25,637 bases of DNA from a virus, in the IMG/VR virus record IMGVR_UViG_3300025286_000127, positions 1 to 25,637 of that record; one strand, 5' to 3'. A program made the position numbers and the translations under genes. Below are positions 3,757-15,599 of this stretch, one piece after another. Each line of letters opens with the position of its first letter. Positions within the stretch are counted from its first letter, which is position 1. The notes under the pieces are model-generated. The model was not told the DNA's origin. It saw only the letters and a program-made list of their open reading frames with translations, and ran no database searches.

Positions 3757-3790
3757 CTCTTTACCTCGCTTTCTATGCTTTCTGTTACAA

Positions 3791-3826
3791 TCATTCTCCA
3801 TTCGGATATCTTGGACATTCATTCAT
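3791..3826 (-). pseudogene. 11-codon remnant of a duplicated gene start (MNECPRYPNGE, stop)
   Basis: An ATG at 3826-3824 overlaps the upstream stop (ATGA) and has GAGGAGA 5 nt before it. It opens a frame reading MNECPRYPNGE and then TGA at 3793-3791. The first codons match the start of the 3164-3463 gene (MDECPRYPNGEYNC) at DNA level for roughly 45 nt, after which similarity is lost and several stops follow. I read it as the dead end of a duplicated gene. It could still be translated as a short peptide that couples the two zinc-ribbon genes. Confidence 0.6.
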
Positions 3827-4035: not shown

Positions 4036-4232
4036 TACTTCACCTCGTTTTCATCAAATATCATGTCATCTAAAATTTCCCAACCTCGTTCTATCATGCT
4101 GTTTGTCATCCATTTCTCGTTGCTACTTAACCATGCCTCAGCTTGGTCGTCAGTCCATTGTGAGTATTCACGACTAGTCCTTATGTGGTGAACATCATCT
4201 GTAGTCCATGCAACTTCTGCATATCTTTTCAT
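4035..4232 (-). CDS. Conserved small acidic protein (paralogue of 8360-8611), unknown
   Basis: The product is a 65-residue protein rich in Trp and acidic residues, with the pattern T-x-D-D-V-x-x-I-R ... Y-x-x-W-T-D-D-Q-A-x-x-W-L ... M-x-x-x-G-W-E-I-L-D-D. The same layout (E-E-I-x-x-I-R ... Y-P-E-W-T-N-E-Q-V-x-x-W-V ... M-N-D-A-G-I-E-W-I-H-D) is found in the cassette gene at 8360-8611, so the two are paralogues. I cannot assign a function. It is the first gene after a 189-nt gap and has a strong AAGGAG site 7 nt before the ATG at 4232. Confidence 0.62.
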   Translation of the reverse strand: MKRYAEVAWTTDDVHHIRTSREYSQWTDDQAEAWLSSNEKWMTNSMIERGWEILDDMIFDENEVK

Positions 4233-4421
4233 TCTTTAACTCCTTATGATTTTGTTGTGAGCAGTTTAAAATCTCATACTCAGGAGAAGAGATGCACTTC
4301 CTGTAACTTCACCACCAAGTTCAGAAGAGTTGGGATTATTTGAAAGTCCTCGCAATGAGGTAATTTACGTCAGGAAACCAAATGAATGAAAAAAACTGAC
4401 GGGTGGTTAAATCCCTAGCGT
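4233..4421. other. Intergenic gap inside the leftward operon
   Basis: This is the longest gap in the operon. CGTCAG at 4368-4373 and CTGACG at 4396-4401 form a 6-bp inverted repeat around a 22-nt loop containing a run of seven A on the + strand. On each strand one frame stays open for about 33-40 codons with protein-like composition but has no ATG and no ribosome binding site, so these could be remnants of a lost gene. I see no convincing promoter or terminator. Confidence 0.4.
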
Positions 4422-4637
4422 TTATTCATTATTTTCTTTTAGCCATTCAGCTACTTCCGACTTACGGAACTTATATATAGTGTTGTAACGATATCTAGGC
4501 ATACCTGCTTTAAGGTAAGTATTCCTGATAGTCCAAACACTAACGTCAAGCCACTCGCTAAGTTTTCTAATACCTATAAAAGGTTCTTCGTTCTCAACAT
4601 ATTGGCGTTCCACTTGTTCTTCCGATTTGACTTCCAT
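4422..4637 (-). CDS. Helix-turn-helix DNA-binding protein (excisionase/MerR-like)
   Basis: This 71-residue protein has a central HTH_17-type domain: IGIRKLSEWLDVS, a turn, WTIRNTYLKAGMPRYR, then a wing YNTIYKFRKSEVAEWLKE. The order of first helix, recognition helix, wing and closing EVAEWL helix matches small excisionases and phage repressor-like proteins. It shares the fold type, though little sequence, with the protein at 122-352. The start is taken at the ATG at 4637, which has GAGG 7 nt upstream; a TTG at 4652 in the same frame lies before that site and is unlikely. The first 64 nt overlap the tail of the nuclease gene in another frame, an unusually long overlap. Confidence 0.7.
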   Translation of the reverse strand: MEVKSEEQVERQYVENEEPFIGIRKLSEWLDVSVWTIRNTYLKAGMPRYRYNTIYKFRKSEVAEWLKENNE

Positions 4638-5416
4638 AATCTCACCTCGCAAATATTTTTAAATGTGTTTTGATGTTCGGGTATATTTCTTATTTCTTTT
4701 ATTTGTATTTGTTTATCCTCAGTCTTTGGCAATTTAACTATGATCGCTCTCATTGGCTGAGTTAAATCTTCATTAGTAAGAAATGTTTCATTACCACTGT
4801 AGGCTAGGGCTAACGTATATGCGCCACCTACCTGTAGTACCATCTCTGCATGAAAATCTTTAGATGTTTTATAGTCTATAACTACTAGTCGGTTATCAGT
4901 ATCTCTAACTATTAGGTCAGCCGTACCTGCAAATCGTATACCATCTTTGTAGTAGTAGAGACTTTGTTCTGTTGCAACTATTCTAGAATCAAATCCAGAA
5001 TCCCTGAGCCATCCATACCAAGCTGAGACTACGGGTTTAAACTTATCTTCATATGGTATGTTTGGGTTATAGGTTAATTCTTCCAGTAAGTAATGTGCCT
5101 GAGAACCAAAGTCACTTGATTCTTTTCTTACTTCTTCAGCCGCATCCTTAGACTTCTCAACCATCTTTAGGATCGCATTGTATTGTAAGTCAGGAGCAAA
5201 GGTTAGAAGGTAGGGTAGGGTATTCTTTATATACTCATACCCTAAGTTCCATCTCCAAATCTCTAAGCCTTTACCCTTGTCCAGTACATCAATGATTGAG
5301 GTAACTCTAGGGAACACTGTTCCTTCAGGGATACGGCTATCTCCCTGTACGAGATAGCCTTTCGCATCGTTAGCTAATCTGACTTCTACTTTCTTATGTT
5401 CTATAGGTGCAACCAT
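4574..5416 (-). CDS. PD-(D/E)XK nuclease of RecB/Cas4 type
   Basis: This 280-residue protein carries the motifs of the RecB-type nuclease superfamily: RVTSIID near the start (37-43), G104-x-x-x-H108 in the helix before the core, Glu150 (VATEQSLY), the metal-binding Asp167 in GTADLI, the D181-Y-K183 dyad in VVIDYKTSK and Gln195 in LQVGGAY. All catalytic positions are present, so it should be an active Mg2+-dependent DNA exonuclease or endonuclease. In phages such proteins resect DNA ends for recombination or replication. The neighbouring RecA-like ATPase and proline-rich protein fit a DNA-processing module. The ATG at 5416 shares a base with the preceding stop (TAATG) and has only a weak AAGTGA upstream, so it probably depends on coupling. 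Confidence 0.85.
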   Translation of the reverse strand: MVAPIEHKKVEVRLANDAKGYLVQGDSRIPEGTVFPRVTSIIDVLDKGKGLEIWRWNLGYEYIKNTLPYLLTFAPDLQYNAILKMVEKSKDAAEEVRKESSDFGSQAHYLLEELTYNPNIPYEDKFKPVVSAWYGWLRDSGFDSRIVATEQSLYYYKDGIRFAGTADLIVRDTDNRLVVIDYKTSKDFHAEMVLQVGGAYTLALAYSGNETFLTNEDLTQPMRAIIVKLPKTEDKQIQIKEIRNIPEHQNTFKNICEVRLWKSNRKNKWNANMLRTKNLL

Positions 5417-6432
5417 TATTCACTTATAAAATATTTCTCTGGATTAGTTATGAAATCAAAGTTCTGAGCAATAACATCTAGCATGGTATCTGCCATAATG
5501 CCTCTTAGAATTGGTCGGGCATCGTTAGCCCACATACTGCCGACTCTCAACATAATTTCTTCAGGACTTTGAGGTTGACCTGATTGTATACCTGCCTCTT
5601 TAACAGACTCATACATAGTGCTATACATTGACTCTACTAACGGTGCCAACATAGTGCTTACACCATTGAAGGCATTACCGATAGACATACCAAGTTGGTT
5701 TTGATCAGCAAATATATTAGCGAGTTTTTGTTTTTGCCAGTCAGGTATATCTACAATAGTGTTATCTACTGGTGGTTGTGGTGGTATATATGGTGGTGCA
5801 GGTGGAGCATATGGTGGTGCAGGTGGAGTATATGGTTGTTGTGCATTTACATTAGGTAAGTTTGGTACCTGATGTAATCCTTGCGAATTATCAACATTAG
5901 GATACTGAGGGAATGGGTCTTGGACTGCATATTGTGGATTAGGTTCTACACTAGTAATTACTGCACCTGCTGTTTGTAAAATGCCTACGGTAGGTGGAAC
6001 ATTCATATCTATATATGGAATACTTCTATCCCACTGAGATATTTTCCAATAGTAATCATCGGGTAAGGCAGTAGCAGGGTTACCAGAGCCGTTACCATTA
6101 GGCTTGGTCTGTTCTAGTACAACATTAAAGGACTGAATACTTTTAAGTAATGTAAACAATTCTTGTCCTTTAGGTATATCTTTAAATTCTGCATTTGGGA
6201 ACAGGAAACTGTTTGGATTCACGTAATCAGGACACACACTTTTATCCACAAAGATTCTTTGAACACTGGTTAAATGATCTCTCCCTGCCAGAGTTGATAA
6301 CTCTTCAGCCCACTCAAACACTCCCTGCAATGTCCATTGGTTTTGATTTTGGGGATTCTGTTCACACTTGAGTACGTGTATTGTTCCGTTTATCCTTGTG
6401 GGTACTGGTTGCCATCTATTATTCATCGTCAT
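5416..6432 (-). CDS. Proline-rich modular protein, unknown
   Basis: This 338-residue protein has three parts. Residues about 1-150 form an ordered-looking domain (WQPVPTRINGTIHVLKC ... WTLQGVFEW). Residues about 165-230 are a Pro/Gln/Asn/Tyr-rich linker with repeated PPYAPPAP units. The C-terminal 110 residues are helical (LANIFADQNQLGMSIGNAF ... RPILRGIMADTMLDVI). I recognise no family. Its place between the nuclease and a coiled-coil protein suggests a DNA-metabolism partner such as a DNA-binding or scaffold protein, but that is inference. The ATG at 6432 is chosen because GGAG lies 6 nt upstream; an ATG at 6459 lies in front of that site and has none. Confidence 0.6.
   Translation of the reverse strand: MTMNNRWQPVPTRINGTIHVLKCEQNPQNQNQWTLQGVFEWAEELSTLAGRDHLTSVQRIFVDKSVCPDYVNPNSFLFPNAEFKDIPKGQELFTLLKSIQSFNVVLEQTKPNGNGSGNPATALPDDYYWKISQWDRSIPYIDMNVPPTVGILQTAGAVITSVEPNPQYAVQDPFPQYPNVDNSQGLHQVPNLPNVNAQQPYTPPAPPYAPPAPPYIPPQPPVDNTIVDIPDWQKQKLANIFADQNQLGMSIGNAFNGVSTMLAPLVESMYSTMYESVKEAGIQSGQPQSPEEIMLRVGSMWANDARPILRGIMADTMLDVIAQNFDFITNPEKYFISE
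5788..5828. repeat. 21-nt-period tandem repeat encoding the proline linker
   Basis: Two identical 20-nt copies (5788-5807 and 5809-5828) repeat with a 21-nt period, and a partial third copy follows. The unit encodes APPAPPY on the - strand. The in-frame period lets the linker change length by slippage without breaking the gene. Confidence 0.85.
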
Positions 6433-6745
6433 TTTCTTCTCCTCTATTTTTAAATTCATTATAAACGATATAGTTTTCTGCTTGAATTAAGACAGGTTTA
6501 AAAGTATTTGATATATCATTAGTAGCTACCACTAATCCATCTATTTCTTCTAATAAATCCTGTAATTTATCTAGTTCTTTTTGTTTGTCCTCAATGAAAT
6601 TGTTATTCAGATATCTTTGTGACTCTATAGTCGTAACATATTGTTCGAGATTATCTTTTCGATTGGTTAGAGTTGTGAAGTATGAATCAATGCGTTCCTT
6701 AAAACTTGAGAACGTTTGATCAATCTGATCTATCTTTTTATTCAT
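6419..6745 (-). CDS. Coiled-coil protein, unknown
   Basis: This 108-residue protein is almost wholly helical, with heptad-like spacing over residues 1-80 (IDQIDQTFSSFKERI, then NLEQYVTTIE, then QKELDKLQDLLEEI). It has an acidic tail (EENDDE), no cysteines, no signal peptide and no catalytic motif. It probably oligomerises or bridges partners. The start at 6745 overlaps the preceding stop region by 8 nt and lacks a clear ribosome binding site, so it likely depends on translation of the gene before it. Its own 3' end overlaps the start of the proline-rich gene by 14 nt. Confidence 0.6.
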   Translation of the reverse strand: MNKKIDQIDQTFSSFKERIDSYFTTLTNRKDNLEQYVTTIESQRYLNNNFIEDKQKELDKLQDLLEEIDGLVVATNDISNTFKPVLIQAENYIVYNEFKNRGEENDDE

Positions 6746-7196
6746 GTGCTTGTTTTATTTTCCAGTCCACTAGGTCTACATCCATATCGCAATGTGGACA
6801 ACCGGCACTTATCCAATTCAGGTGATACACTAACGTAGTTTCACTACATCGAGGACACGTAATAAGAAACTTCTCCTTATTGGGATTCTTATTAGGTGGT
6901 AAGGGTGGTTCCTTATTAGAGATGTATCCATCTACAATTCCTTCTGCCATCTGTTGACATACTTGGAACTCATCTTCATTCAATTTACTTGCAAGCCACT
7001 TGGCGACTACAGTTGCATGATGAATATAATGTTCTGCATCCATTTCTTCTTCTAATTCTTTAGGCATACCTTTTACAATAACAACAAGTGTCTCAGTGAG
7101 GGCTTGTTTATAGGTTTTCCACTCCGCCTCATCCATTATTTCGTGAATATAGTCATCCATTGCCATGTCATCTTCTTTGGAATAGTTACTCATCAT
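6738..7196 (-). CDS. Helical protein with C-terminal zinc ribbon
   Basis: This 152-residue protein has an acidic helical region (residues 1-95), a PPLPPNK hinge, and a C-terminal ribbon with CPRC at 114-117 and CPHC at 133-136. That spacing is typical of a four-Cys zinc ribbon in nucleic-acid-binding proteins. The substrate is unknown. Two adjacent ATG codons (7196 and 7193) both follow AAGGGTGA; either could be used, and the second has the better spacing. The gene overlaps the end of the preceding one by 11 nt. Confidence 0.65.
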   Translation of the reverse strand: MMSNYSKEDDMAMDDYIHEIMDEAEWKTYKQALTETLVVIVKGMPKELEEEMDAEHYIHHATVVAKWLASKLNEDEFQVCQQMAEGIVDGYISNKEPPLPPNKNPNKEKFLITCPRCSETTLVYHLNWISAGCPHCDMDVDLVDWKIKQAHE

Positions 7197-7521
7197 TCAC
7201 CCTTCTACTAGTTGGACGCACTTCATACCTATAAAACTTCAGATCACATTCGATAGGACGTCCATACTCAAAGATTACACGAAGGAGTAATGGTGTAAGT
7301 TCCATAGACCAATGTGTATTCATTACTTCACATGTTAGTTTCTCAGCCATAGACCAAGAAATATTAAACTTTTCGTATACTTCATTTCTAACCTCATAAA
7401 AATCATACATGTCTAGGTGGTCGGAGCTTTCTTCTCCCACGACTCCTAGCAATCCATTAAGTTCTTCAGCAATGTACTCTTTTATTTTTGGACGATTATC
7501 TTTATTAACTCTAGTTACCAC
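7186..7521 (-). CDS. First gene of the leftward operon, unknown function
   Basis: This is a 111-residue protein with an acidic N-terminal half and a basic C-terminus (RYEVRPTSRRVNDE). I recognise no domain. It starts at GTG (7521) with AAGGAG 6-7 nt upstream. It is the first gene behind the - strand promoter at 7581-7553, so the mRNA leader would be only about 25 nt. First position behind a consensus promoter suggests early, strong expression. Confidence 0.6.
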   Translation of the reverse strand: MVTRVNKDNRPKIKEYIAEELNGLLGVVGEESSDHLDMYDFYEVRNEVYEKFNISWSMAEKLTCEVMNTHWSMELTPLLLRVIFEYGRPIECDLKFYRYEVRPTSRRVNDE

Positions 7522-7552
7522 TTTCTTCTCCTTTCAATGCCCTACTTGGATC

Positions 7553-7581
7553 ATCCTAGCATCATCTTCCACTCGTGTCAA
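7553..7581 (-). promoter_or_regulatory. Sigma70-type promoter for the leftward operon
   Basis: On the - strand a perfect TTGACA (7581-7576) is followed by exactly 17 nt and TAGGAT (7558-7553). The predicted start point is near 7546, just ahead of the gene at 7186-7521. It points away from a second promoter only 30 nt to the right. Confidence 0.68.
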
Positions 7582-7616
7582 TACAGTGAAATACAGTTCT
7601 ATTGACCAAATTGACC
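7580..7616. repeat. Two pairs of short direct repeats between divergent promoters
   Basis: AATACAGT occurs at 7580-7587 and 7590-7597, a 10-nt period of about one helical turn. ATTGACC occurs at 7601-7607 and 7610-7616, a 9-nt period. They lie between and over the -35 elements of the two divergent promoters, where a repressor or activator binding both would control them together. Confidence 0.5.
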
Positions 7617-7639
7617 GATAAAAAATTATCTGTTATATT
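7611..7639 (+). promoter_or_regulatory. Sigma70-type rightward promoter
   Basis: TTGACC (7611-7616), a 17-nt spacer and TATATT (7634-7639) give a good promoter facing right, with a start point near 7646. No + strand gene follows; all genes to the right up to 10316 are on the other strand. It would therefore make a short non-coding RNA or an antisense transcript to the cassette genes. Confidence 0.6.
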
Positions 7640-7645
7640 TATAGG

Positions 7646-7720
7646 GATATCGGATGTGAACTCTGATGTTTGTTGTGCTAGAGAGAGTGTCTAGCCTGAA
7701 CAACTTTGCACTCTCTCTTA
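7646..7720 (+). ncRNA. Candidate small RNA with two mutually exclusive hairpins
   Basis: The predicted transcript carries a perfect 10-bp stem, AGAGAGAGTG (7680-7689) with CACTCTCTCT (7709-7718), loop 19 nt. A competing 6-bp stem pairs GCTAGA (7677-7682) with TCTAGC (7690-7695), loop 7 nt. The two share bases and cannot form together. The long stem is followed by an AU-rich stretch rather than a clean U run, so it is at best an imperfect terminator. RNA status is inferred from promoter plus structure only. Confidence 0.4.
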
Positions 7721-7797
7721 TATTTATATAAAGAGATTATTAAAAAAGATATATATAATATATATATATAATATATATAGTTTTTCTTTTCTTTTAT

Positions 7798-7823
7798 TTA
7801 AGTATATTCATTAGGATATTATC
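7798..7823. repeat. Cassette 1 inverted repeat, downstream arm
   Basis: This 26-nt arm is the reverse complement of 8290-8315 with one difference. It lies 18 nt beyond the stop of the 7842-8045 gene. The stretch AATGAATATACTTAA (as read in the partner arm) is private to this pair. Confidence 0.88.
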
Positions 7824-7841
7824 TATAATATATTTAGTTTA

Positions 7842-8045
7842 TTAGTTTTTTAGTTTGTATTTAGTTAGTGCGGTAGCTTTTGCCAACTCCACTTCTTCTT
7901 TTGATAGACTGTCATCCGCTATTTGTTGAGCAATCGTCGCACACTCTTGTGACTTCTTCTCTGTTGGTGCAGTCAGGGCTAAGTAAAGTGCTAGTGTAAC
8001 CGCCTCAAGTGGGTTTTCTGGATACCCTTGTGGTACGTCCATCAT
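7842..8045 (-). CDS. Cassette 1 second gene, conserved small phage protein
   Basis: This is a 67-residue helical protein (ENPLEAVTLALYLALTAP, a hinge, then a QQIADDSLSKEEVELAKATAL helix). I associate this layout with small uncharacterised phage proteins of no known function. There is no signal peptide; the LALYLALTAP stretch is only moderately hydrophobic and is likelier an amphipathic helix than a membrane span. It overlaps the gene before it by 4 nt (ATGA), so the two are coupled and share one cassette bounded by the 7798-7823 and 8290-8315 arms. An adjacent second ATG at 8042 is possible. Confidence 0.6.
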   Translation of the reverse strand: MMDVPQGYPENPLEAVTLALYLALTAPTEKKSQECATIAQQIADDSLSKEEVELAKATALTKYKLKN

Positions 8046-8272
8046 TCCACCTTCACTTTCTCAGGGAAGAATGGTAACTCGTGATCCATACCGCCTTGAT
8101 TAATGGTAAGTCGTACCTCAAACCCTAACTCTCTAGCGTAATCTAGTAGAAATTCATTTAGTGTTTGTTTCCCTGCTATGCGAGTTAATATTCTAGCCTT
8201 CTCATTTGCAGGGTAGTAATACTTAGTGCCATAATGTGTTTGTGCTTGTACCAATACTTTTTTATCGTTCAT
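8042..8272 (-). CDS. Cassette 1 first gene, conserved small phage protein
   Basis: This 76-residue protein has an N-terminal strand-rich part (VLVQAQTHYGTKYYYPANEKARILTRI in two pieces around Lys18) and a second half with LLDYARELGFEVRL. The pattern of a T-H-Y-G turn, Y-P-A-N-E and A-R-I-L is one I have seen in small uncharacterised phage proteins; function unknown. The start at 8272 lies 17 nt inside the upstream repeat arm and follows GGAAAGAGAG, a purine-rich stretch serving as a loose ribosome binding site. It overlaps the next gene by 4 nt. Confidence 0.6.
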   Translation of the reverse strand: MNDKKVLVQAQTHYGTKYYYPANEKARILTRIAGKQTLNEFLLDYARELGFEVRLTINQGGMDHELPFFPEKVKVE

Positions 8273-8289
8273 TAGTTTACTCTCTTTCC

Positions 8290-8315
8290 GATAATACCCT
8301 AATGAATATACTTAA
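8290..8315. repeat. Cassette 1 inverted repeat, upstream arm
   Basis: The arm pairs with 7798-7823 over 26 nt with a single difference at core position 8 (C here, T in the complement of the partner). It begins 17 nt upstream of the ATG at 8272. Only 5 nt separate it from the next cassette's arm. Confidence 0.88.
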
Positions 8316-8320
8316 CTTAT

Positions 8321-8346
8321 GATAAGTACTCTAAGATAGACACTAT
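8321..8346. repeat. Cassette 2 inverted repeat, downstream arm
   Basis: This is the reverse complement of 8640-8665 over 26 nt with one difference, at the same core position as in the other cassettes. It ends 13 nt past the stop of the enclosed gene. Confidence 0.9.
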
Positions 8347-8359
8347 AACTATATGTGTT

Positions 8360-8611
8360 TTATTCTTTCTCTCGTAACTCTAATTCTTCTTCTGAATATT
8401 TATCAATGTTGTCATGTATCCACTCGATCCCTGCATCGTTCATCGCATGGATAATATCATCTTCATAACTATAAGACTCAACCCATTGTTTAACTTGTTC
8501 GTTTGTCCACTCTGGATAGCCTTGATCCTTCCTGATTTGTTGGATTTCTTCAGTGTCTATAAGGGATTCTATCTCTATAAAGTCTTGGTTTTTTCCATAG
8601 TATTTTGGCAT
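8360..8611 (-). CDS. Cassette 2 gene, acidic small protein (paralogue of 4035-4232)
   Basis: The product is an 83-residue, strongly acidic protein. Residues about 18-70 follow the same pattern as the operon protein at 4035-4232: EEIQQIRKDQGYPEWTNEQ, then a W-V helix, then a MNDAGIEWIHDNI helix. The tail ends in a charged EEELELREKE run. No function is known to me for this type. It is the only gene in its cassette. The ATG at 8611 has only a weak GAGAG upstream, and the upstream repeat arm starts 28 nt before it. Confidence 0.62.
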   Translation of the reverse strand: MPKYYGKNQDFIEIESLIDTEEIQQIRKDQGYPEWTNEQVKQWVESYSYEDDIIHAMNDAGIEWIHDNIDKYSEEELELREKE

Positions 8612-8639
8612 TTGGTTTATCTCTCTTTCTTTAAAAGAA

Positions 8640-8665
8640 ATAGTGCCTATCTTAGAGTACTTATC
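8640..8665. repeat. Cassette 2 inverted repeat, upstream arm
   Basis: It pairs with 8321-8346 over 26 nt with one difference. Core ATAGTGCCTATCTTAG is followed by the private extension AGTACTTATC. Two nucleotides separate it from the cassette 3 arm. Confidence 0.9.
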
Positions 8666-8667
8666 TG

Positions 8668-8702
8668 CCTGACAGGTATCCTAAGATAGACACTAGACGT
8701 AG
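8668..8702. repeat. Cassette 3 inverted repeat, downstream arm
   Basis: This 35-nt arm is the reverse complement of 9074-9108 with five differences. The extensions CTACGT and TGTCAGG on either side of the core are shared only by this pair. It ends 20 nt past the stop of the enclosed gene. Confidence 0.85.
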
Positions 8703-8722
8703 TATCATTAATTATAGTTTCA

Positions 8723-9058
8723 TTATTCAGTACCAACTATGTGGCACGTGCAATCTTTATCAGTATGGTACTCATCCAAAGCCTCATAGATCATCTCGTG
8801 GATAGTATCATGGTCTACTTTCTCGTATGGGTAATAATGATCTACTATATAACGTGCAATCATGGCTCTCCATTTTGTATGTTCTCTATCTGATAGGTTT
8901 TTCCATTCAGTATGGTTATGTCCCCAATAACTATTATTGTATTCAGTTTCCAACATATTTCTAGCTGAATTAGATTTTCTTAGCCATCCTGTTACAGCGA
9001 TAAGCATAAATTCTCGAATGGTTGTATTTTTATTTATATTCCAATTTTTTGTTATCAT
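8723..9058 (-). CDS. Cassette 3 gene, unknown
   Basis: This 111-residue protein is rich in Trp, His and Tyr. It has a helical N-terminus (TTIREFMLIAVTGWLRKS) and a long second half (HTKWRAMIARYIVDHYYPYE, then a DTIHEMIYEALDEYH helix), and it ends DCTCHIVGTE with a C-x-C-H group that could bind a metal. I recognise no family. The ATG at 9058 follows a GGGAAAG stretch about 10 nt upstream. It is enclosed by the 35-nt repeat pair 8668-8702 and 9074-9108. Confidence 0.55.
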   Translation of the reverse strand: MITKNWNINKNTTIREFMLIAVTGWLRKSNSARNMLETEYNNSYWGHNHTEWKNLSDREHTKWRAMIARYIVDHYYPYEKVDHDTIHEMIYEALDEYHTDKDCTCHIVGTE

Positions 9059-9073
9059 TTGTTTTGTCTTTCC

Positions 9074-9108
9074 CTACGTGTAGTGCCTATCTTAGAACAC
9101 TTGTCAGG
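9074..9108. repeat. Cassette 3 inverted repeat, upstream arm
   Basis: It pairs with 8668-8702. It ends exactly where the cassette 4 arm begins (9109), with no base between. It starts 15 nt before the ATG at 9058. Confidence 0.85.
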
Positions 9109-9139
9109 ATATAATGACCAATCTAATATAGACATTATC
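9109..9139. repeat. Cassette 4 inverted repeat, downstream arm
   Basis: This is the reverse complement of 9348-9378 over 31 nt with two differences, both wobble-compatible in leftward RNA. It ends 17 nt past the stop of the enclosed gene. Confidence 0.9.
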
Positions 9140-9156
9140 TACTTTGTTAATTGTTT

Positions 9157-9327
9157 TCATTCTTGTGTTATTACACATCCATTATTCGGGTTCTTACATT
9201 TAGGGCTATAACATTCTTCACATTCAGTAAGTATTTCATTTATCCGAATCGCATCTTGCAATAGTTTTAGATATTCGATTTGCTTACTATCAAAGGTAAT
9301 TTCTAAAGGCTTTTTTTGTTCAGTCAT
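9157..9327 (-). CDS. Cassette 4 gene, 56-residue cysteine protein
   Basis: An ATG at 9327-9325 opens a 56-codon frame ending at TGA 9159-9157. The N-terminal part is a charged helix (FDSKQIEYLKLLQDAIRIN). The C-terminal part has four cysteines in the pattern C-EE-C-x4-C-x6-C (TECEECYSPKC, then NNGC), suggesting a small metal-binding knuckle. GGAG lies 10 nt upstream of the start. The 20-nt and 17-nt distances to the flanking repeat arms match those of the other cassettes, which supports it as a real gene despite its size. Function unknown. Confidence 0.68.
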   Translation of the reverse strand: MTEQKKPLEITFDSKQIEYLKLLQDAIRINEILTECEECYSPKCKNPNNGCVITQE

Positions 9328-9347
9328 TAGGTATTATCTCCATTTCT

Positions 9348-9378
9348 GATAATGCCTATATTAGATTAGTCATTATAT
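9348..9378. repeat. Cassette 4 inverted repeat, upstream arm
   Basis: It pairs with 9109-9139. Core ATAATGCCTATATTAG has the private extension ATTAGTCATTATAT. It starts 20 nt before the ATG at 9327; 4 nt separate it from the cassette 5 arm. Confidence 0.9.
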
Positions 9379-9382
9379 AATT

Positions 9383-9411
9383 TAGATAGTTAACCTAATA
9401 TAGACATTATT
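9383..9411. repeat. Cassette 5 inverted repeat, downstream arm
   Basis: This is the reverse complement of 9938-9966 over 29 nt with three differences. The extension TTAACTATCTA (as read in the partner) is private to this pair. It ends 16 nt past the stop of the 9428-9727 gene. Confidence 0.88.
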
Positions 9412-9427
9412 CATTATGGTTTTCAAA

Positions 9428-9727
9428 TTATTTATATTGTTTGTATGATTTTAAATCTTGATTCACTAGTTCTTGACACTTAGTAGGCAATGCTTCAAAG
9501 TCTATTACCTTATCATTAGTACCCCATACACTATAGCGTTGTTCTAATTCACCATGTTGACCAAAGCCTTGTGGATGCGTTGGGTTCTCCGACATTGCTA
9601 GGTAGGGATAAACTCCATATTCATTGGGTTCATATAAAACCATGTACCTATCAAAGTGTTTTTTGCCGCTATCAGCTACTAGTAAAATCCCATTAGGATA
9701 ATTTGTTCTAGACTTTCTATATTTCAT
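9428..9727 (-). CDS. Cassette 5 second gene, conserved phage protein of unknown function
   Basis: This is a 99-residue protein. The central block DRYMVLYEP ... YLAMSENPTHPQGFGQHGE followed by VIDFEALPTKCQELVNQDL is a pattern I know from small uncharacterised proteins in many phages and bacteria: a strand, an ENP-x-HPQGF loop and a closing LP helix. The reaction and partner are unknown. AGGA lies 9 nt before the ATG at 9727. The first 11 nt overlap the end of the preceding gene, so both are probably translated together from one cassette. Confidence 0.65.
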   Translation of the reverse strand: MKYRKSRTNYPNGILLVADSGKKHFDRYMVLYEPNEYGVYPYLAMSENPTHPQGFGQHGELEQRYSVWGTNDKVIDFEALPTKCQELVNQDLKSYKQYK

Positions 9728-9917
9728 TTTGTCTTTTTCCTATATAAAATCCACTATCCCATTGGCATTCTAAATCCATTAGATTTGCATAGCGATTGTC
9801 ATCATAATTTATTTCACCTGATAACATTTTTTCTTTGGTTTTTCTATATGGATTATCTGCAAGGTTTGACCCAAATATATAAGCAGTCTTTCCTTCAGAT
9901 GTAGTACTATCTAACAT
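9717..9917 (-). CDS. Cassette 5 first gene, unknown
   Basis: This is a 66-residue hydrophilic protein (TAYIFGSNLADNPYRKTKE, then GEINYDDNRYANLMD, then QWDSGFYIGK) with no recognised domain. The ATG at 9917 follows AGAAAGTAGAGAAA, a purine-rich leader also found before the gene at 10011-10316. It sits 20 nt inside the upstream repeat arm at 9938-9966. A protein-coding call is supported by the overlap with the better-conserved next gene and by the regular cassette geometry. Confidence 0.55.
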   Translation of the reverse strand: MLDSTTSEGKTAYIFGSNLADNPYRKTKEKMLSGEINYDDNRYANLMDLECQWDSGFYIGKRQNEI

Positions 9918-9937
9918 TATTTGTTTCTCTACTTTCT

Positions 9938-9966
9938 AATAATGCCTATATTGGATTAACTATCTA
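9938..9966. repeat. Cassette 5 inverted repeat, upstream arm
   Basis: It pairs with 9383-9411 over 29 nt with three differences. It overlaps the cassette 6 arm by one base (9966). It starts 20 nt before the ATG at 9917. Confidence 0.88.
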
Positions 9967-9994
9967 GGTTAGGTATTCTTATCAGGATATTATC
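9966..9994. repeat. Cassette 6 inverted repeat, downstream arm
   Basis: This is the reverse complement of 10338-10366 over 29 nt with three differences. The extension ATACCTAACCT (as read in the partner) is private to this pair. It ends 16 nt past the stop of the enclosed gene. Confidence 0.88.
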
Positions 9995-10010
9995 CACTAA
10001 TTATTAATTG

Positions 10011-10316
10011 TTACTCTTCATTAATCATTTCATCTAATGCGTCAATATCAAGTTTAGGATCAAAAAAACTTACACCGTCTTTTGTTTTAGTTTCTTGTGT
10101 AAATCGTTCAATCTTCTCATCTTGCCAAGTGTCTGGTCTCATTAGATGGTTAAATGTTCCTATTAAATCATTGCGCAATGATAAGTATGGCGATGCATAA
10201 CCTTTATAACCTTTGACTATCTGATATAGTGGGTAATCATTTTGTAACCATAGCGCAACGTTCCAAGTTTCATAATTTTTCCATCCATTGTAGGTAGTAT
10301 CTTTTGCTAAACTCAT
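10011..10316 (-). CDS. Cassette 6 gene, NGWKNYETWNVALWL family protein of unknown function
   Basis: This 101-residue protein has the conserved opening YNGWKNYETWNVALWLQND and the later block KDGVSFFDPKLDIDALDEMI. I recognise this pairing from a widespread family of small phage and mobile-element proteins that still has only a DUF name (I believe DUF7249, not certain). No activity is known. It is the first gene of the cassette array behind the promoter at 10498-10470, and so probably the most strongly transcribed. The leader AGAAAGTAGAGAAA precedes the ATG at 10316, without a GGAG-type site. Confidence 0.75.
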   Translation of the reverse strand: MSLAKDTTYNGWKNYETWNVALWLQNDYPLYQIVKGYKGYASPYLSLRNDLIGTFNHLMRPDTWQDEKIERFTQETKTKDGVSFFDPKLDIDALDEMINEE

Positions 10317-10337
10317 TATAGTTTTCTCTACTTTCTA

Positions 10338-10366
10338 GATAATACCCTGATAGGGATACCTAACCT
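10338..10366. repeat. Cassette 6 inverted repeat, upstream arm
   Basis: It pairs with 9966-9994. It starts 21 nt before the ATG at 10316 and is the right-hand limit of the array. No further arm is seen to the right. Confidence 0.88.
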
Positions 10367-10469
10367 TTGTGCTTGGTACCGGATTTTGCCGGACGGTCAA
10401 TCAATCTTTGTCATTGTCGCCATTACCCAAGAATCACTATTCAGTTGTTAAGGTTCTATCACTATCCAT

Positions 10470-10498
10470 AGTCTACACGCTCATACAATAAAAGTCAA
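10470..10498 (-). promoter_or_regulatory. Promoter for the cassette array
   Basis: On the - strand TTGACT (10498-10493) is followed by 17 nt and TAGACT (10475-10470). The predicted start near 10463 would give about 100 nt of leader before the first repeat arm at 10366. The -10 matches consensus at four of six positions. Confidence 0.5.
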
Positions 10499-10508
10499 TA
10501 GGGTAGAT

Positions 10509-10525
10509 ATAGATAGCCTATCTAT
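10509..10525. promoter_or_regulatory. Palindrome upstream of the cassette promoter
   Basis: ATAGATAG, one C, then CTATCTAT forms a perfect 8-bp inverted repeat just upstream of the leftward -35 element. This is a typical place for an activator or repressor operator. Confidence 0.45.
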
Positions 10526-10624
10526 CTATATACCGGTGGGCTGTAGCCATATCATGTATTGGTGTAGGGTGTATCCAAGTAATCATGTAAAGCTAATAAA
10601 AAAGGATAAGGATAAAGTCGCTAT

Positions 10625-10804
10625 CTAAAGTAAACACTAAACTATATTTATTTATATCTATTCTAAAAGACTTAGCGTTTATGTTAGCTATGACCTAAAG
10701 TAAACGATAAATTATATACTTAGCGTTTAAGTTAGCCCCACGTCACAATATTTTTTCCCACTATATATAGCGTCTATTGGTTACCCACCGGGTATCCCTT
10801 AGCG
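10625..10804. repeat. Iteron-like repeats (TTAGCGTTTA in both orientations)
   Basis: CTTAGCGTTTAWGTTAGC occurs at 10671-10688 and 10719-10736. CTAAAGTAAAC-NN-TAAAYTATA occurs at 10625-10646 and 10695-10716 and contains the inverted, slightly diverged motif TAAACACTAA or TAAACGATAA. Looser copies are ATAGCGTCTA near 10768 and CTTAGCGATA at 10798. Repeated short motifs beside AT tracts are typical of initiator-protein binding sites, but could equally be operators. Confidence 0.55.
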
Positions 10805-10993
10805 ATATGTAATAGTGCAAGTGCATACCCATCTATATTTAATTTTATAAAAAGGGAGATAGTATAGATAGGATATTTATAAATATGAAGGCGCATATAT
10901 TATATATATATATATTACATACAATAATAATTCTTTTCTCTTTTTATTTATATAATATATATATATATATTGGGATGAAAATAACTTTTTAAA

Positions 10994-11066
10994 GGGCTGG
11001 GTAAAAGAGATAGTAGCTTCAAAATAATCACATGGAAGGAGGAACGAACCAAGTGAAGCCCAGCCC
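10994..11066. other. GC-rich inverted repeat enclosing a short leader frame
   Basis: GGGCTGGG (10994-11001) is complementary to CCCAGCCC (11059-11066), with an inner AGCTTC/GAAGC pairing. The span is 73 nt, but no D arm, anticodon arm or T loop can be drawn, so I do not call a tRNA. Inside it AAGGAGG (11036-11042) precedes a GTG at 11053 in a 17-codon frame (ATG 11032, stop 11083-11085), which could be a leader peptide. Confidence 0.4.
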
Positions 11067-11090
11067 GATTGAGATTATAGCATAGGGCAA

Positions 11091-11125
11091 TAAAAAAAAG
11101 AGAACGGATAGATACCCGCTCTCTT
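11091..11125 (-). terminator. Intrinsic terminator, leftward
   Basis: On the - strand AAGAGAGCGG (11125-11116), an 8-nt loop and CCGTTCTCTT (11107-11098) form a 10-bp stem with one G-U pair. The complement of the run of eight A at 11092-11099 supplies the T tract. It would stop leftward antisense transcription leaving the late region before it reaches the control region. Confidence 0.72.
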
Positions 11126-11154
11126 CCCAACAATAAACATCAAAGGAGTTAAAA

Positions 11155-11304
11155 ATGATGTCCACAGTAGACGTTAGCATAGGTATTTTATTAAAGCAAG
11201 GAGTAAACCAGTATAGTGCAGATCAGACGTTTCTGGAGGTGGTCGAGGCGGAAGACAGGTTCCGCAATCTGCTTACCTCTCCTTGCGCCGTCATGCTACC
11301 ATAG
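11155..11304 (+). CDS. Small protein at the head of the late operon, unknown
   Basis: An ATG at 11155 (with a second ATG next to it) follows AAAGGAG by 6-7 nt and opens a 49-codon frame ending at TAG 11302-11304. The protein is acidic in the middle (FLEVVEAEDRFRNLL) and has no recognised domain. The excellent ribosome binding site, the position directly after the terminator and the 4-nt gap to the next ATG support it as the first gene of the rightward operon. A GTG-started frame from 11216 would overlap it in another frame and has no binding site, so I reject that reading. Confidence 0.6.
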   Translation: MMSTVDVSIGILLKQGVNQYSADQTFLEVVEAEDRFRNLLTSPCAVMLP

Positions 11305-11308
11305 GATC

Positions 11309-11857
11309 ATGCTTTTGTTATCGAAAACTTGTCCGAGATGTAAAAAAGTAGCAAGAGGAGACAGGGAGGGATTTACCTGCCCTATCTGTGGATGGAACGA
11401 GTATATTATTCCTGCTCCTCCCAAAGAACTCACCGGAAGTGTTCCACTTATAGATAGGTTCTTCTTAGCCTATAAAGGCACACACCCGAAATACAGGTAC
11501 GTAAGAGCGTCTATCATAACGTTTCTTTATCTGACTCCGAAGAAAAAAGATAAGATTATTTACTTTATGGATTGTCCTCATGATAGATGTAATATACGGA
11601 CGGCTGGCAAGAAGTCGTGGCAGTATTCTCTGAGGAAATTAGAGAAGAGTTACTTCAAGTTTGTTTGCAAGGATAAACATTTATGGTATCTTGTGGTGTT
11701 AAATGGCGAGCCGTTACATTGGCTTAGTAATGATATGGAGGTCGATATGCCTAAAGTCGGAAAGAAACATTTTTCATATACTCCTAAAGGCAGGACTGCT
11801 GCTAAGAAGTATGCAAAGAAGACCGGTAAGAAGATGACTAAGAAGAAGAAGTATTAA
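11309..11857 (+). CDS. Zinc-ribbon protein with lysine-rich tail
   Basis: This 182-residue protein starts MLLLSKTCPRCKK, with CPRC at 8-11 and CPIC at 24-27 forming a classic zinc ribbon. A middle domain contains CPHDRC and ends in a strand-rich section (KFVCKDKHLWYLVVLNGEPL). The last 25 residues are strongly basic (AAKKYAKKTGKKMTKKKKY). The ribbon and basic tail point to DNA or RNA binding. Its place immediately before the small terminase suggests a role in packaging or late gene control, but this is inference. The ATG at 11309 lies just after the previous stop, with only a weak AGG before it, so coupling is likely. Confidence 0.6.
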   Translation: MLLLSKTCPRCKKVARGDREGFTCPICGWNEYIIPAPPKELTGSVPLIDRFFLAYKGTHPKYRYVRASIITFLYLTPKKKDKIIYFMDCPHDRCNIRTAGKKSWQYSLRKLEKSYFKFVCKDKHLWYLVVLNGEPLHWLSNDMEVDMPKVGKKHFSYTPKGRTAAKKYAKKTGKKMTKKKKY

Positions 11858-12346
11858 ATGCCAGCTAGTAATGCACGTATAAGCGATCATTTAGCTAACA
11901 GACCCCAAGATGTTAAAGCTAGGCAGGATAAGTTCTTAGAGATATATGAGTCTGATGAAGGTGGAACTATTATCCATGCGGCAGAACAGGTAGGTATTTC
12001 CCGAAATACTGTAATGTACTGGAGAAGAGAGGATGTGCAGGGATTTGTTAAACGATTCGATAACGCCCATAAGACATTTTCCGAAAGAGGCGAGAAAAAC
12101 TGGTTATATAAAAGACTTGAAGACCCAAAGTGTCATCCGAATCTAGTTATGTTTGCATTGAAAGCATTATTACCTAATAAGTATCGTGAATTAGCTATGA
12201 ATACCGATCTGACAGGTGAAACTATCTTAGAAGAACTTAAACGAGCCAGAAAACAAATGGTGAATACCGCTAAAGAGGATATAAAAGATACCTCTGTAAC
12301 AGTAGAACAACAAGTTAAGGACATACTTAGTAGTAAAGGGAATTGA
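11858..12346 (+). CDS. terS: Terminase small subunit
   Basis: This 162-residue protein has a helix-turn-helix at about residues 36-58 (GTIIHAAEQVGISRNTVMYW). It is followed by the helical block typical of phage small terminases (FVKRFDNAHKTFSERGEKN ... LYKRLEDPKCHPNLVMFALKALLPNKYRE). The C-terminal 40 residues are a charged coiled region. Small terminase binds the packaging initiation site on phage DNA and loads the large subunit. It lies directly before the large terminase, the usual order. The ATG immediately follows the stop of the gene before it. Motif recognition plus context make this a good call. Confidence 0.75.
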   Translation: MPASNARISDHLANRPQDVKARQDKFLEIYESDEGGTIIHAAEQVGISRNTVMYWRREDVQGFVKRFDNAHKTFSERGEKNWLYKRLEDPKCHPNLVMFALKALLPNKYRELAMNTDLTGETILEELKRARKQMVNTAKEDIKDTSVTVEQQVKDILSSKGN

Positions 12347-12352
12347 TGTCAG

Positions 12353-13711
12353 ATGGCAATTCAAGCCCCTCCGAATACAGATCAGGTAGCCGAATATATT
12401 TATGGCAAAGTAGGATTTAAACCTACTGAGTTACAGAAACCTATACTCGCTTGTAAGAAACGATTTATACTCGTTGCAGGTGGTGAGCAAGCGGGTAAGA
12501 GTATAGTAGCCTCTAAATTTTTACTGAGTAGATTTTTAGATCACGAAGGTGCTGGACTCTACTGGCTGGTTGCTGCTGACTATGAAAGAACAAGAGCTGA
12601 ATTTGAATATCTTGTTGACGACTTTGCGGCAATCGGTGTTCTCGCTGAAGCATCGAAAAGAGTCGATCCGGGAAAGATCATATTAGCCGATGGAACCAGA
12701 ATAGAAACTAAGTCAGCTAAAGACCCAAGAACTCTTGCTATGCGCGCTCCTAACGGTATTATAGGATGCGAAGCATCGCAGCTAGATTTAGAAACCTTTC
12801 ATAGATTGCGCGGCAGATGCGCTCCGAAGCGAGGGTGGATGTTTTTATCAGGTACCTTTGAAGGCTCATTAGGCTGGTATCCACAGATGTATCAAGCGTG
12901 GGAACACTCGTCTTCTTTAGAGGAAGAATCATTTTCGTTACCTTCTTATTCTAATGAATATCTCTATCCCGGTGGTAGAGATGACCCTGAAATTTTAGCT
13001 TTAGAGAAGGTAAGCAGCGATGACTTCTTTATGGAGAGAATCGAGGGAATCCCGTCACCACCACAGGGAATGGTATTTACTGAAATTAGACCAGATATTC
13101 ATATTCAGGATGTGGAATATGAACCTGATGAACCAGTGCATATATGGATAGACCCCGGTTACGCAGAAGCATATGCATGTGAGATAGTTCAAATAATAAA
13201 TGATCAGGTAAGAGTTATAGATGAAATCTATGAACGCGATCTGGTTACAGATGATATGATTGATATAGCACAATCCAGACCGTGGTGGCGCGATGCGGAG
13301 TTTGGTGTGATTGATATAGCAGGATACCAGCATCAGGCGATGGCTGCACCAGCAGAAGTCTGGCTGGAACGAACTGGTATTTATTTTGATTCACAGAAGA
13401 TAAGAATTAACGAGGGAACAGAAAGATTAAAGTCCTTCTTAAAGACCGATCCGGTGGATCAGAAAGAAGCTCGCATTGTTTTTAGTCCAAAGTGTAAAGG
13501 TATACTTTCTGAGTTTGGAATTATGCCGAATCCCTTCGATGGACAGACTCGTGCGTACAGGTGGAAATATGATCGGGATGGAAATATAGTTGGCGAATCT
13601 CCTCAAGATCAGTATAATCATGGCGTTAAAGCCATAATTTATGGTTTAATTAATCGTTATGGTTATGGCTATATAACTGATAATAGAACAATTAAAGTAA
13701 GGCGTTGGTAA
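12353..13711 (+). CDS. terL: Terminase large subunit (DNA packaging ATPase/nuclease)
   Basis: This is a 452-residue protein. Walker A is VAGGEQAGKS (41-50), with lysine 49. The Walker B strand with catalytic glutamate is GIIGCEA (135-141, Glu140), and the coupling motif is FLSGTFE (164-170). The RNase H-like nuclease domain begins with IWIDPGYAEAYA (Asp267), continues with VIDIAGYQHQAM (Asp321), and ends with QYNHGVKAIIYGL (420-432). The protein pumps genome DNA into the prohead through the portal and cuts it. At the last nuclease motif, where an Asp is common (D-x-x-D-A-x-R-Y), I see His and Lys instead; Asp419 just before could substitute. A 6-nt gap separates it from the small terminase. 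Confidence 0.92.
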   Translation: MAIQAPPNTDQVAEYIYGKVGFKPTELQKPILACKKRFILVAGGEQAGKSIVASKFLLSRFLDHEGAGLYWLVAADYERTRAEFEYLVDDFAAIGVLAEASKRVDPGKIILADGTRIETKSAKDPRTLAMRAPNGIIGCEASQLDLETFHRLRGRCAPKRGWMFLSGTFEGSLGWYPQMYQAWEHSSSLEEESFSLPSYSNEYLYPGGRDDPEILALEKVSSDDFFMERIEGIPSPPQGMVFTEIRPDIHIQDVEYEPDEPVHIWIDPGYAEAYACEIVQIINDQVRVIDEIYERDLVTDDMIDIAQSRPWWRDAEFGVIDIAGYQHQAMAAPAEVWLERTGIYFDSQKIRINEGTERLKSFLKTDPVDQKEARIVFSPKCKGILSEFGIMPNPFDGQTRAYRWKYDRDGNIVGESPQDQYNHGVKAIIYGLINRYGYGYITDNRTIKVRRW

Positions 13712-15598
13712 ATGGCGAATTATAAGCCCGAAGAGATTATCGATCTTGTCGATAGTCATTATGATCTGACTGAACCACTACGCACCCGTATGGATGAAGA
13801 CCATAAAATCTATCGTTTGGAAGAGTTTGATGCCGGTGAAGGATATCAGTCCTATACATCTAATGAACCACAAGTTTATGCAGATAAGCTGATCTCATGG
13901 ATAACGTCTGCCGAGATGGTAACGAGAGTTCCATATAATAATTCTGAACGAGAGCAGCGAGAGAATAATGATGCAAAGGAAAGATTCCTTATCGGAATAT
14001 TAAAAGCGGCTGATGACAGATTAACCGCTAAATTTCAGCCTAGTATAAGACAACAAATGGCTTGGTTTACTTGTATTCGTGGATGGTACGCTGGTCGCGC
14101 GTTATTAGTTAAGAATGAAGATGATGAGACTTACGTGGATATTCAGCCGTGGGACCCGATGCACACCTATTGGGCTGAAGGGAAACACGGACTCGCGTGG
14201 GCTTGCTATAAAACTAAGAAGACTCCATCAGAAATTAAAGCAATATGGGGAGTAGAAGTTAAAGGTGAAAACGCTGAACTCGATGACGATGACGCAATTG
14301 ATGTTTATGACTTCTATGATGATGAAGATAATATAGTATGTACCGATGATACTGTCTTAAAGAAGCGAACTAAGCATGGTGCGGATAGAGTTCCTGTCTT
14401 TTTAGGACCGGTTGGTGCGAATCCTCTGGTTCAGGCTATTACTTTCAATAATAATGTAGATACTGTAGAAGATTATGGCGAGTCTTGCTATAAATCTTCA
14501 CGATCTTTGTATGAGAAGCACAACTTTATGATGTCAACCATGCTTGAACTTACCGCTAGGTCCCGTAGACAAGGACTTAAAGTTAAATCCAGAGATGGAA
14601 GTAAGACTTTAGAGGAAGACCCTTACAAGGAAGGCTCTGAAATCGCTCTTGGACAGGGCGAGGACGTAGAACCACTCGGATTACTGGAGATGGCTAAGGA
14701 ATCAGGGGCGTTTATGGGTCTTGTTGCTGGTGAAATGCAACGAGGCGGCTTACCTCACTCGATTTATGGTCAATTAGAGTTCCAATTATCTGGTTTTGCT
14801 ATTAATACTCTTAGACAAGGTGTCGAAACTATATTAATTCCAAGACTTCAAGCTGTGGAACGAGCGTATCGAGCTATATTCCAGCTTATTTGCGATCAGT
14901 ATATATCTGGCGCATTTAAGGCGATGGAATTATCAGGACAAGATCAGAACAGGATGTATTTTAGGGAAGAAATTACTCCAGATATGATAAAAGACGCAGG
15001 TGATGTAGAAGTTTCACTTATCGGACAACTTCCACAAGACGATATGAGTAAGATGAGTATGGCGCAGATAGCAAGAGAAGGAAATACTCCGTTACTATCA
15101 GATACGTTTATTAGAGATAATATCTTGGGCTTACAATCCGCTGATGCAATGGGAGATTCAATTAATACGCAAATGGCGGAAAGAACTTTACCTGAAGCGC
15201 AGCTTTGGACTCTGTTGCAAGCCGCTATCAGACAAGGCAGGGAGGATTTGGCTGAGTTTTATCAGGGAGAATTAATGAGAGTGTTTATGGCAAAAGCTAT
15301 TGAACAACAACAAATGATAGCTCAGGCTGCACCGCAAGCTCAAGCTCCACCACAAGCTCAAGCTCCACCACAAGCTCCACCACAAGCTCCACCACCCCAA
15401 GGTATGGTTCCTCAAGGTGGAGGTGGACCAACTTTACCACCACAAGTAATGCCTGACGCAATGATGGGAGTACCACCAGTTGCACCAACCGCTCCACCGG
15501 GTCCTTCAGTTCCACCCGGAACTCCAAGACCGGGAGCGCAAGGCACAGAAGCTAGGCTTGCTAATATGGGATTAATACCAGTAGGACCGGGAGGTTAA
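13712..15598 (+). CDS. Portal protein
   Basis: This 628-residue protein starts at the base after the large terminase stop. Its size, position and content fit a phage portal, the dodecameric ring through which DNA enters and leaves the capsid: an N-terminal helical stem (IIDLVDSHYDLTEPLRTRMDE in part), an aromatic-rich core (QPWDPMHTYWAEGKHGLAWA) and a long helical clip/stem region (ILIPRLQAVERAYRAIFQLI). I see no short diagnostic motif, as is normal for portals. From about residue 543 to the end it is a low-complexity Pro/Gln/Ala and then Gly/Pro tail that is probably disordered. Its repeats are expected to vary between related phages. Confidence 0.75.
   Translation: MANYKPEEIIDLVDSHYDLTEPLRTRMDEDHKIYRLEEFDAGEGYQSYTSNEPQVYADKLISWITSAEMVTRVPYNNSEREQRENNDAKERFLIGILKAADDRLTAKFQPSIRQQMAWFTCIRGWYAGRALLVKNEDDETYVDIQPWDPMHTYWAEGKHGLAWACYKTKKTPSEIKAIWGVEVKGENAELDDDDAIDVYDFYDDEDNIVCTDDTVLKKRTKHGADRVPVFLGPVGANPLVQAITFNNNVDTVEDYGESCYKSSRSLYEKHNFMMSTMLELTARSRRQGLKVKSRDGSKTLEEDPYKEGSEIALGQGEDVEPLGLLEMAKESGAFMGLVAGEMQRGGLPHSIYGQLEFQLSGFAINTLRQGVETILIPRLQAVERAYRAIFQLICDQYISGAFKAMELSGQDQNRMYFREEITPDMIKDAGDVEVSLIGQLPQDDMSKMSMAQIAREGNTPLLSDTFIRDNILGLQSADAMGDSINTQMAERTLPEAQLWTLLQAAIRQGREDLAEFYQGELMRVFMAKAIEQQQMIAQAAPQAQAPPQAQAPPQAPPQAPPPQGMVPQGGGGPTLPPQVMPDAMMGVPPVAPTAPPGPSVPPGTPRPGAQGTEARLANMGLIPVGPGG
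15338..15396. repeat. Tandem repeat in the portal tail
   Basis: Two 18-nt units (GCTCAAGCTCCACCACAA) are followed by 12-nt units (GCTCCACCACAA), encoding QAQAPP and QAPP blocks. All periods are multiples of three, so length changes stay in frame. Confidence 0.85.
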
Positions 15599-15599
15599 T

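Follow-up and report, generated by a model that had tools for sequence, protein, structure and literature searches.

The window analysed here is a virus record of 25,637 bases with a G+C content of 38% (IMG/VR record IMGVR_UViG_3300025286_000127, taken at its full length). Between positions 7798 and 10366 its - strand carries eight small genes in six consecutive units, and each unit is enclosed by its own pair of inverted repeats, called arms below (Table 1). Read in the sense of the RNA, all units have the same order: a 5' arm, a gap of 15-28 nucleotides (nt), a gene or an overlapping gene pair, a gap of 13-20 nt, and a 3' arm. The array was first pointed out in an initial annotation based on the sequence alone. 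The current work is a computational follow-up of that annotation.

Table 1. Arms and genes of the six units, in the order of the RNA (window positions)
Feature	Position	Strand	Remarks
Unit 6 5' arm	10338..10366	-	core type B; upstream of gene 10011-10316
Unit 6 gene	10011..10316	-	101 amino acids (aa); Pfam DUF7249 / phrog_871
Unit 6 3' arm	9966..9994	-	
Unit 5 5' arm	9938..9966	-	core type A
Unit 5 first gene	9717..9917	-	66 aa; no PHROGs family below E 0.07; 11-nt overlap with second gene
Unit 5 second gene	9428..9727	-	99 aa; phrog_4496 (unknown function)
Unit 5 3' arm	9383..9411	-	
Unit 4 5' arm	9348..9378	-	core type A
Unit 4 gene	9157..9327	-	56 aa; no PHROGs match
Unit 4 3' arm	9109..9139	-	
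Unit 3 5' arm	9074..9108	-	core type A
Unit 3 gene	8723..9058	-	111 aa; family matches weak, below cut-off
Unit 3 3' arm	8668..8702	-	
Unit 2 5' arm	8640..8665	-	core type A
Unit 2 gene	8360..8611	-	83 aa; family matches weak, below cut-off
Unit 2 3' arm	8321..8346	-	
Unit 1 5' arm	8290..8315	-	core type B
Unit 1 first gene	8042..8272	-	76 aa; no family match; 4-nt overlap with second gene
Unit 1 second gene	7842..8045	-	67 aa; no significant family match
Unit 1 3' arm	7798..7823	-	

Structure of the arms

The arm pairs lie where the initial annotation had placed them and have the lengths and differences that it gave: the numbers of complementary positions in units 1 to 6 are 25/26, 25/26, 30/35, 29/31, 26/29, and 26/29. 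Six pairs with a score of at least 17 were found in the region 7600-10600, and none in 500 dinucleotide-preserving shuffles, where the best pair scored 16. The rest of the window (1-7500 and 10701-25637) has no pair scoring at least 14 with arms 150-1000 nt apart. An inverted-pair scan with a longer seed misses the pair of unit 3 and that of a related contig, L019 (see below); shorter-seed scans show both.

The distances from the arms to start and stop codons are as uniform as had been reported, and the gap before the start codon holds a purine-rich stretch resembling a ribosome-binding site. The overlapping gene pairs of units 1 and 5 each form a single unit with no arms between the genes. 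Going from unit 1 to unit 5, neighbouring units are separated by 5, 2, 0, and 4 nt, while units 6 and 5 overlap by 1 nt, which had been overlooked. No constant target duplication is seen at the unit ends, as the five junction spacings are all different.

The arms have a common core, as the annotation stated, with some refinement. The exact sequence TARTGYCTATMTTAG occurs seven times in the window. Units 2-5 have it on seven of their eight arms; the exception is the 5' arm of unit 5, which ends with TTGG rather than TTAG. The core of units 1 and 6 is of a second type. The type is identical on both arms of a unit in all six cases (type A in units 2-5, type B in units 1 and 6). For further comparisons we used a register of 26 columns centred on a site common to all arms. 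In this register one core site is fixed as G in the 5' arm and U in the 3' arm in six of the six pairs, which had also been missed, and five further column pairs are invariant across the six units.

The extensions beyond the core were described earlier as private to each pair. They are indeed specific to the partner arm; not all of them are unrelated to those of other units, however, since units 1 and 6, 2 and 3, and 4 and 5 share 19-20 of the 26 columns. Units 1 and 6 have 20 columns in common, five changed on both arms and one changed on a single arm. The corresponding numbers are 19, three, and four for units 2 and 3 and 19, four, and three for units 4 and 5.

Partner specificity and predicted folding

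Each arm matches the arm on the far side of its own gene better than it matches the adjacent arm: 24-26 of the 26 columns are paired between own arms vs 17-23 between adjacent arms, and there is no case of an adjacent arm matching equally well or better. If all 5' arms are assigned to their own 3' arms, 150 of 156 pairs are standard. This is the best of the 720 possible assignments (the next one gives 147, the mean is 119), and it is also the best of the 48 assignments that preserve the core type.

The differences between units are largely compensated on the opposite arm. Changes on both sides were found at 16 of the 26 pairs; the covariation score is 0.641 compared with a shuffled mean of 0.240, none of 500 shuffles reaches the observed value, and with slid registers the score does not exceed 0.125. 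Units 1 and 2 differ in 12 columns and units 5 and 6 in 10, in both comparisons always on both arms.

All six own stems are present in the predicted fold of the - strand RNA from 7700 to 10450, with 24.7-32.9 expected pairs each. In the same predicted fold the pairing of adjacent arms is 0.0 and no adjacent-arm hairpins are formed. The predicted stems span 26-35 positions, i.e., at least about two helical turns, and the arms align without gaps. According to duplex energies compared by row, the own arm is the best partner in each of the six units. Single arms fold weakly on their own (0.0 to -6.5 kcal/mol). In five of the six units and in L019, the sense RNA forms a stronger duplex than the opposite strand does. 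On these grounds an RNA stem around each unit is well supported in silico.

Related phages

A search with the terminase returned 31 loci, five of which are the same phage (99.7-100% identical). Three of these five, L008, L011, and L012, span the units and show the six pairs again with unchanged orientation. These contigs are 99.87-100% identical and therefore add almost no variation. The arm pairs are thus known from metagenome contigs of one phage and from one informative relative, L019, whose terminase is 83% identical. The arms of L019 (3200-3224 and 3537-3561) are complementary at 23 of 25 positions, and both differences are compatible with G.U pairing. They enclose, with gaps of 26 and 16 nt, a gene of 89 aa that is unrelated to the unit genes of the window, and the stem has 22.9 of 25 expected pairs in the predicted fold. 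The 89-aa protein has no relative among the collected loci, and a scan of viral_contigs with it returned L019 alone. The sequence TAAYCYAATANAG, picked after inspection of the L019 arms, is present on both of them and, in units 4 and 5, on three of the four arms; the other loci, 2.78 Mb in all, contain it three more times.

No such array was seen in 12 terminase loci and nine further stretches, one of which is the same phage. Contig L032 has a nested arrangement of another kind, and L013 and L036 have one 16-nt pair each. In L032 (126-1598), which is a terminase relative, a 382-aa gene without a Pfam match is flanked by inverted 20-nt arms that match perfectly and by a repeated palindrome of 22 nt.

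A first scan of assemblies with a single terminase protein gave no match. Terminase relatives with 53-54% identity (L374-L376) lie in at least three Chloroflexota/Dehalococcoidia assemblies, a hint that this group may include the hosts of the phage family.

Homologous genes and arm-like pairs in other loci

We collected 101 loci outside this phage that have homologues of either of two unit genes, one from unit 6 and one from unit 5. An inverted pair scoring at least 13 surrounds the homologue in only one of them (L144), where the arms are about 400 and 600 nt away from it. Since the homologues elsewhere lack nearby arms, the arms seem to be tied to the phage lineage and not to the genes. The homologue in L113 is 75% identical to the second gene of unit 5, and its leader TAGAAAGTAGAG is common with units 5 and 6. 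In the region 3394-5016 of L113 six genes have the leader TAGAAAGTAGAGGATAAGA or a near-variant before the start; a similar leader is found in units 5 and 6 of the window. Searches with the unit 3 protein and with the exonuclease encoded in the window returned the same phage only, and at the DNA level the units had no match among named phages.

Scanning viral_contigs with two patterns of the core gave 115 and 102 stretches and added 213 loci. Multiple core matches were found in two of these loci, both from the same phage. The annotation had suggested looking for the core, and for pairing arms around other small genes, in phage databases; apart from the same phage, none of the core-scan loci has an inverted pair like those of the six units.

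A strict gene-spanning scan of the collected loci, with an open reading frame (ORF) near both arms and a score of at least 14, gave 10 distinct pairs vs one in reversed loci. Four of the pairs are from this phage, and the rest are from L019, L032, L087, L192, L216, and L308. When looser criteria were applied to 350 other loci (2.91 Mb, partly overlapping), pairs were found in 19 of them, one of which (L361) is L019, and three had at least two pairs. On reading, these three (L052, L053, and L375) turned out to contain repeated leaders or palindromic elements.

Several repeat arrangements in the collected loci are worth recording in their own right. Repeated hairpin-like intergenic elements of about 40-80 nt lie between small genes beside DUF7249 homologues in L042 (2629-3999) and L045 (3363-3980). 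Long repeated leaders precede several genes in L052 (1260-3420), and their GC-rich centre is reversed in one copy. A segment of about 800 nt lies between inverted repeats of 55-59 nt in L262 (136-1051), L298 (12013-12928), L321 (1-908), and L343 (9507-10422). The arm halves are combined differently in L321 and L262; the segment may be invertible, or L262 and L298 may be two strands of one arrangement.

Genomic context

The six units are sited between two divergent gene sets. The - strand genes to the left of about 10.3 kb include those of a staphylococcal-nuclease-like protein, an AAA ATPase, and a PD-(D/E)XK exonuclease; the + strand encodes, from about 11.2 kb, terminase subunits along with further long genes. 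The stretch of 10.37-11.2 kb that adjoins the units has short ORFs only. In this ORF-poor region between the divergent sets, a terminator-like hairpin with a U tract is present on the - strand (11095-11128). Directly downstream of unit 1 there is a possible 10-bp hairpin (7680-7718, AGAGAGAGTG / CACTCTCTCT) beside a long AT repeat, which is 6 nt shorter in contig L012.

In the window there are no tRNA genes and no Rfam matches at the gathering score. Among sigma-70-like promoters, the only type covered, 25 were predicted in the region 7500-11400, which is near the shuffle level (mean 20.0, standard deviation 4.8), and none was recognised inside the arms. Two intrinsic terminators were predicted in the same region compared with 2.0 in shuffles. 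If the arms were instead promoters of a single-subunit RNA polymerase, which they may resemble, such promoters would have to face each other across every gene.

Interpretation and alternative explanations

We have moderate confidence that the arms act as gene-enclosing, partner-specific RNA stems on an early message and that these stems are probably either cut by RNase III or left in place as end clamps. The cutting or clamping is proposed from the layout of precursor rRNA (pre-rRNA) stems and from the known pairing between the 5' and 3' untranslated regions (UTRs) of the icaR mRNA. In the proposed scheme, a leftward message transcribed from the - strand, presumably early and as a whole, would carry the six tandem units. 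The 5' and 3' arms would pair across the gene in the cell and give a stem of 26-35 positions with one closed loop per unit. The start and stop codons would lie within the loop, with the stem just beyond the footprint expected for a ribosome. Partner specificity would come from the outer part of the stem, which differs between units, while the shared inner core with its fixed G.U would be the likely recognition part. The host RNase III, or another double-strand nuclease, could then cut the stems; the enzyme is suggested by the likeness to the stems of 16S and 23S pre-rRNA. The cutting would release single-unit mRNAs with both ends clamped against exonucleases, which may stabilise them. More tentatively, the orthogonal stems could serve as an addressing code against cross-pairing, with one loop per unit, so that the units would be translated, processed, and turned over independently; we regard this extension as possible and less likely than the stems themselves.

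If this is true, a crowded operon could set stability message by message, and the stems would be a compact route by which a single promoter yields insulated messages that resist exonucleases. Owing to the covariation between units, the claim can be tested directly.

The initial annotation had offered two kinds of function. mRNA panhandles gain support from the folding, from the covariation between units, and from one related phage. Ends recognised during the exchange of cassettes between genomes appear weaker in view of the single pair among the 101 homologue loci, the restriction of multi-core contigs to this phage, and the lack of a target duplication.

A number of observations weigh against functional RNA stems. 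For the 3' arm of unit 5, the duplexes with the 5' arms of units 3 and 4 are slightly more stable (-36.5 and -34.8 kcal/mol) than the one with its own 5' arm (-33.5 kcal/mol), and in unit 6 the opposite strand pairs better than the sense RNA. Two of the five junctions between units are able to fold locally (-27.8 and -20.2 kcal/mol) and might compete during transcription. Strong duplexes between the flanks of a gene also occur without such arms, as for the gene 7032-7340 of L037 (-40.8 kcal/mol, rank 1 of 19) and the window gene 6738-7196 (-29.7 kcal/mol, rank 1 of 20). The excess of standard pair types is only modest (24 vs 18.6 in shuffles, with 4 of 500 shuffles as high). Unit 3 has two to four single-arm changes per comparison, including four single and three double changes relative to unit 2. 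The nine arm differences outside the core comprise four G.U-compatible ones, four A.C, and one C.C; lacking a G.U bias, they give no sign of selection for RNA pairing over DNA symmetry. Because the six units have common ancestry, the covariation counts do not represent independent events. Of the 26 other terminase loci, one (L019) was found to have comparable arms, many of these loci being short and possibly missing the matching region, and none were found in further stretches of seven related contigs. Finally, no RNase III was found among the scanned window proteins, which represent a subset of ORFs.

The explanation that survives best besides RNA stems is a DNA-level one, which we nevertheless consider unlikely: the arms would be terminal inverted repeats or recombination ends used for the gain and exchange of small genes, and recombination chemistry or gene conversion would keep them complementary. 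The close packing of the units, 0-5 nt apart or overlapping by 1 nt, resembles a cassette array; the genes inside are small, with unknown functions, a related arm pair encloses an unrelated gene in L019, and the arm differences outside the core have no RNA bias. Conversion, however, should tend to erase the G/A difference between the arms at the fixed core site, and this difference is kept in all six units. The arrangement also lacks a target duplication of a constant kind, unit genes that are up to 75% identical occur in other phages without adjoining arms, and the viral_contigs scans gave more than one copy of the core only for contigs of the same phage. No recombinase was called among the scanned window proteins, which do not include every ORF of a record that may itself be a fragment. 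RNA pairing with a fixed wobble is favoured over a DNA-level origin because the G/A core difference is kept in six of six units while both arms change in the columns around it.

The 3' arm of one unit and the 5' arm of the next could instead fold together into intergenic RNase III sites or terminators, the match across the gene being a by-product of the repeated core. The two junctions with strong local folds are in line with this, as are the repeated hairpin-like intergenic elements of other phage or phage-like contigs (L042 and L375). The remaining junctions are weaker: 6|5 and 2|1, which join different core types, give -3.6 and -8.7 kcal/mol, respectively, and 4|3 gives -13.5 kcal/mol. Considering also the poorer column matches of adjacent arms, the zero adjacent pairing in the ensemble, and the weak folding of single arms, we think that such an origin is improbable. 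Local intergenic hairpins were rejected as the main structure, being strong at two of five junctions only and the own pairing being preferred.

Invertible DNA classically has inverted repeats on either side of a gene. A recombinase might flip each unit through its own repeats and turn the gene on or off relative to a promoter; a shared core together with partner-specific arms would suit such an enzyme, the private sequences confining inversion to the unit. We find this very unlikely, as the orientation is the same in all four spanning contigs (the window, L008, L011, and L012, which perhaps are not independent samples) and no invertase was called among the scanned window proteins. Least credible of all is that the units were simply duplicated from an arm-bearing ancestor and that the arms are decaying relics without function: the common core, the two core types, and the single-arm changes of unit 3 would fit, yet independent decay should affect one arm at a time, and units 1 and 6 have five double changes vs one single, while all 12 columns changed between units 1 and 2 are changed on both arms.

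Comparison with known systems

In the early mRNA of bacteriophage T7, RNase III sites are local hairpins between genes. The proposed processing is similar in that an early polycistronic phage message would be cut into units; the T7 sites, in contrast, are local and intergenic.

The mobile regulatory cassettes called PeSL, reportedly described by Arbiol in 2010 and by Comeau in 2014, are said to be local elements between genes. According to a citing article, these promoter and stem-loop elements of T4-type phages are said to mediate gene shuffling between T4-like phages (PMC4503421). The arms in the window differ in their predicted pairing across the gene and in having no recognised promoter. 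The SAS/ESAS repeats of Cluster K mycobacteriophages are tied to gene starts and include imperfect 17-bp inverted repeats (PMC3203893). As described there, both ESAS half-sites are upstream of the gene and have a spacer of 4-13 bp between them, whereas the arms studied here lie one on each side of the gene.

The 5' and 3' UTRs of the icaR mRNA of Staphylococcus aureus pair with each other and form an RNase III substrate (PMC3868564). The likeness lies in the pairing, predicted in our case, between the two flanks of one gene. In the icaR mRNA the pairing covers the Shine-Dalgarno sequence and interferes with translation initiation. The 5' arms of the phage units end 15-28 nt before the start codon, so the ribosome site should stay free. 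A further difference is that the phage design is repeated six times.

We found no account of a phage with gene-enclosing stems in tandem in the full-text literature, a scope that mostly leaves out subscription papers and preprints. The tandem six-unit design of arms thus appears to have no earlier description, while the putative RNA architecture is of a known kind. Its closest counterpart is the pre-rRNA, in which inverted repeats form processing stems, generally in bacteria too and commonly with RNase III sites, as set out in PMC7038931. Both the bacterial 16S and 23S stems and the archaeal bulge-helix-bulge stems share with the phage units the flanking inverted sequences and a long-range stem, predicted in the phage, for each consecutive unit. 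The phage units differ in enclosing small protein genes, in standing six in tandem, and in having predicted stem sequences that differ from unit to unit; compared with the archaeal bulge-helix-bulge stems, they are gapless and have no 3-nt bulges. If the stems form in the cell, the mRNAs of this phage would be handled like rRNA precursors, each unit being excised or protected by a stem of its own.

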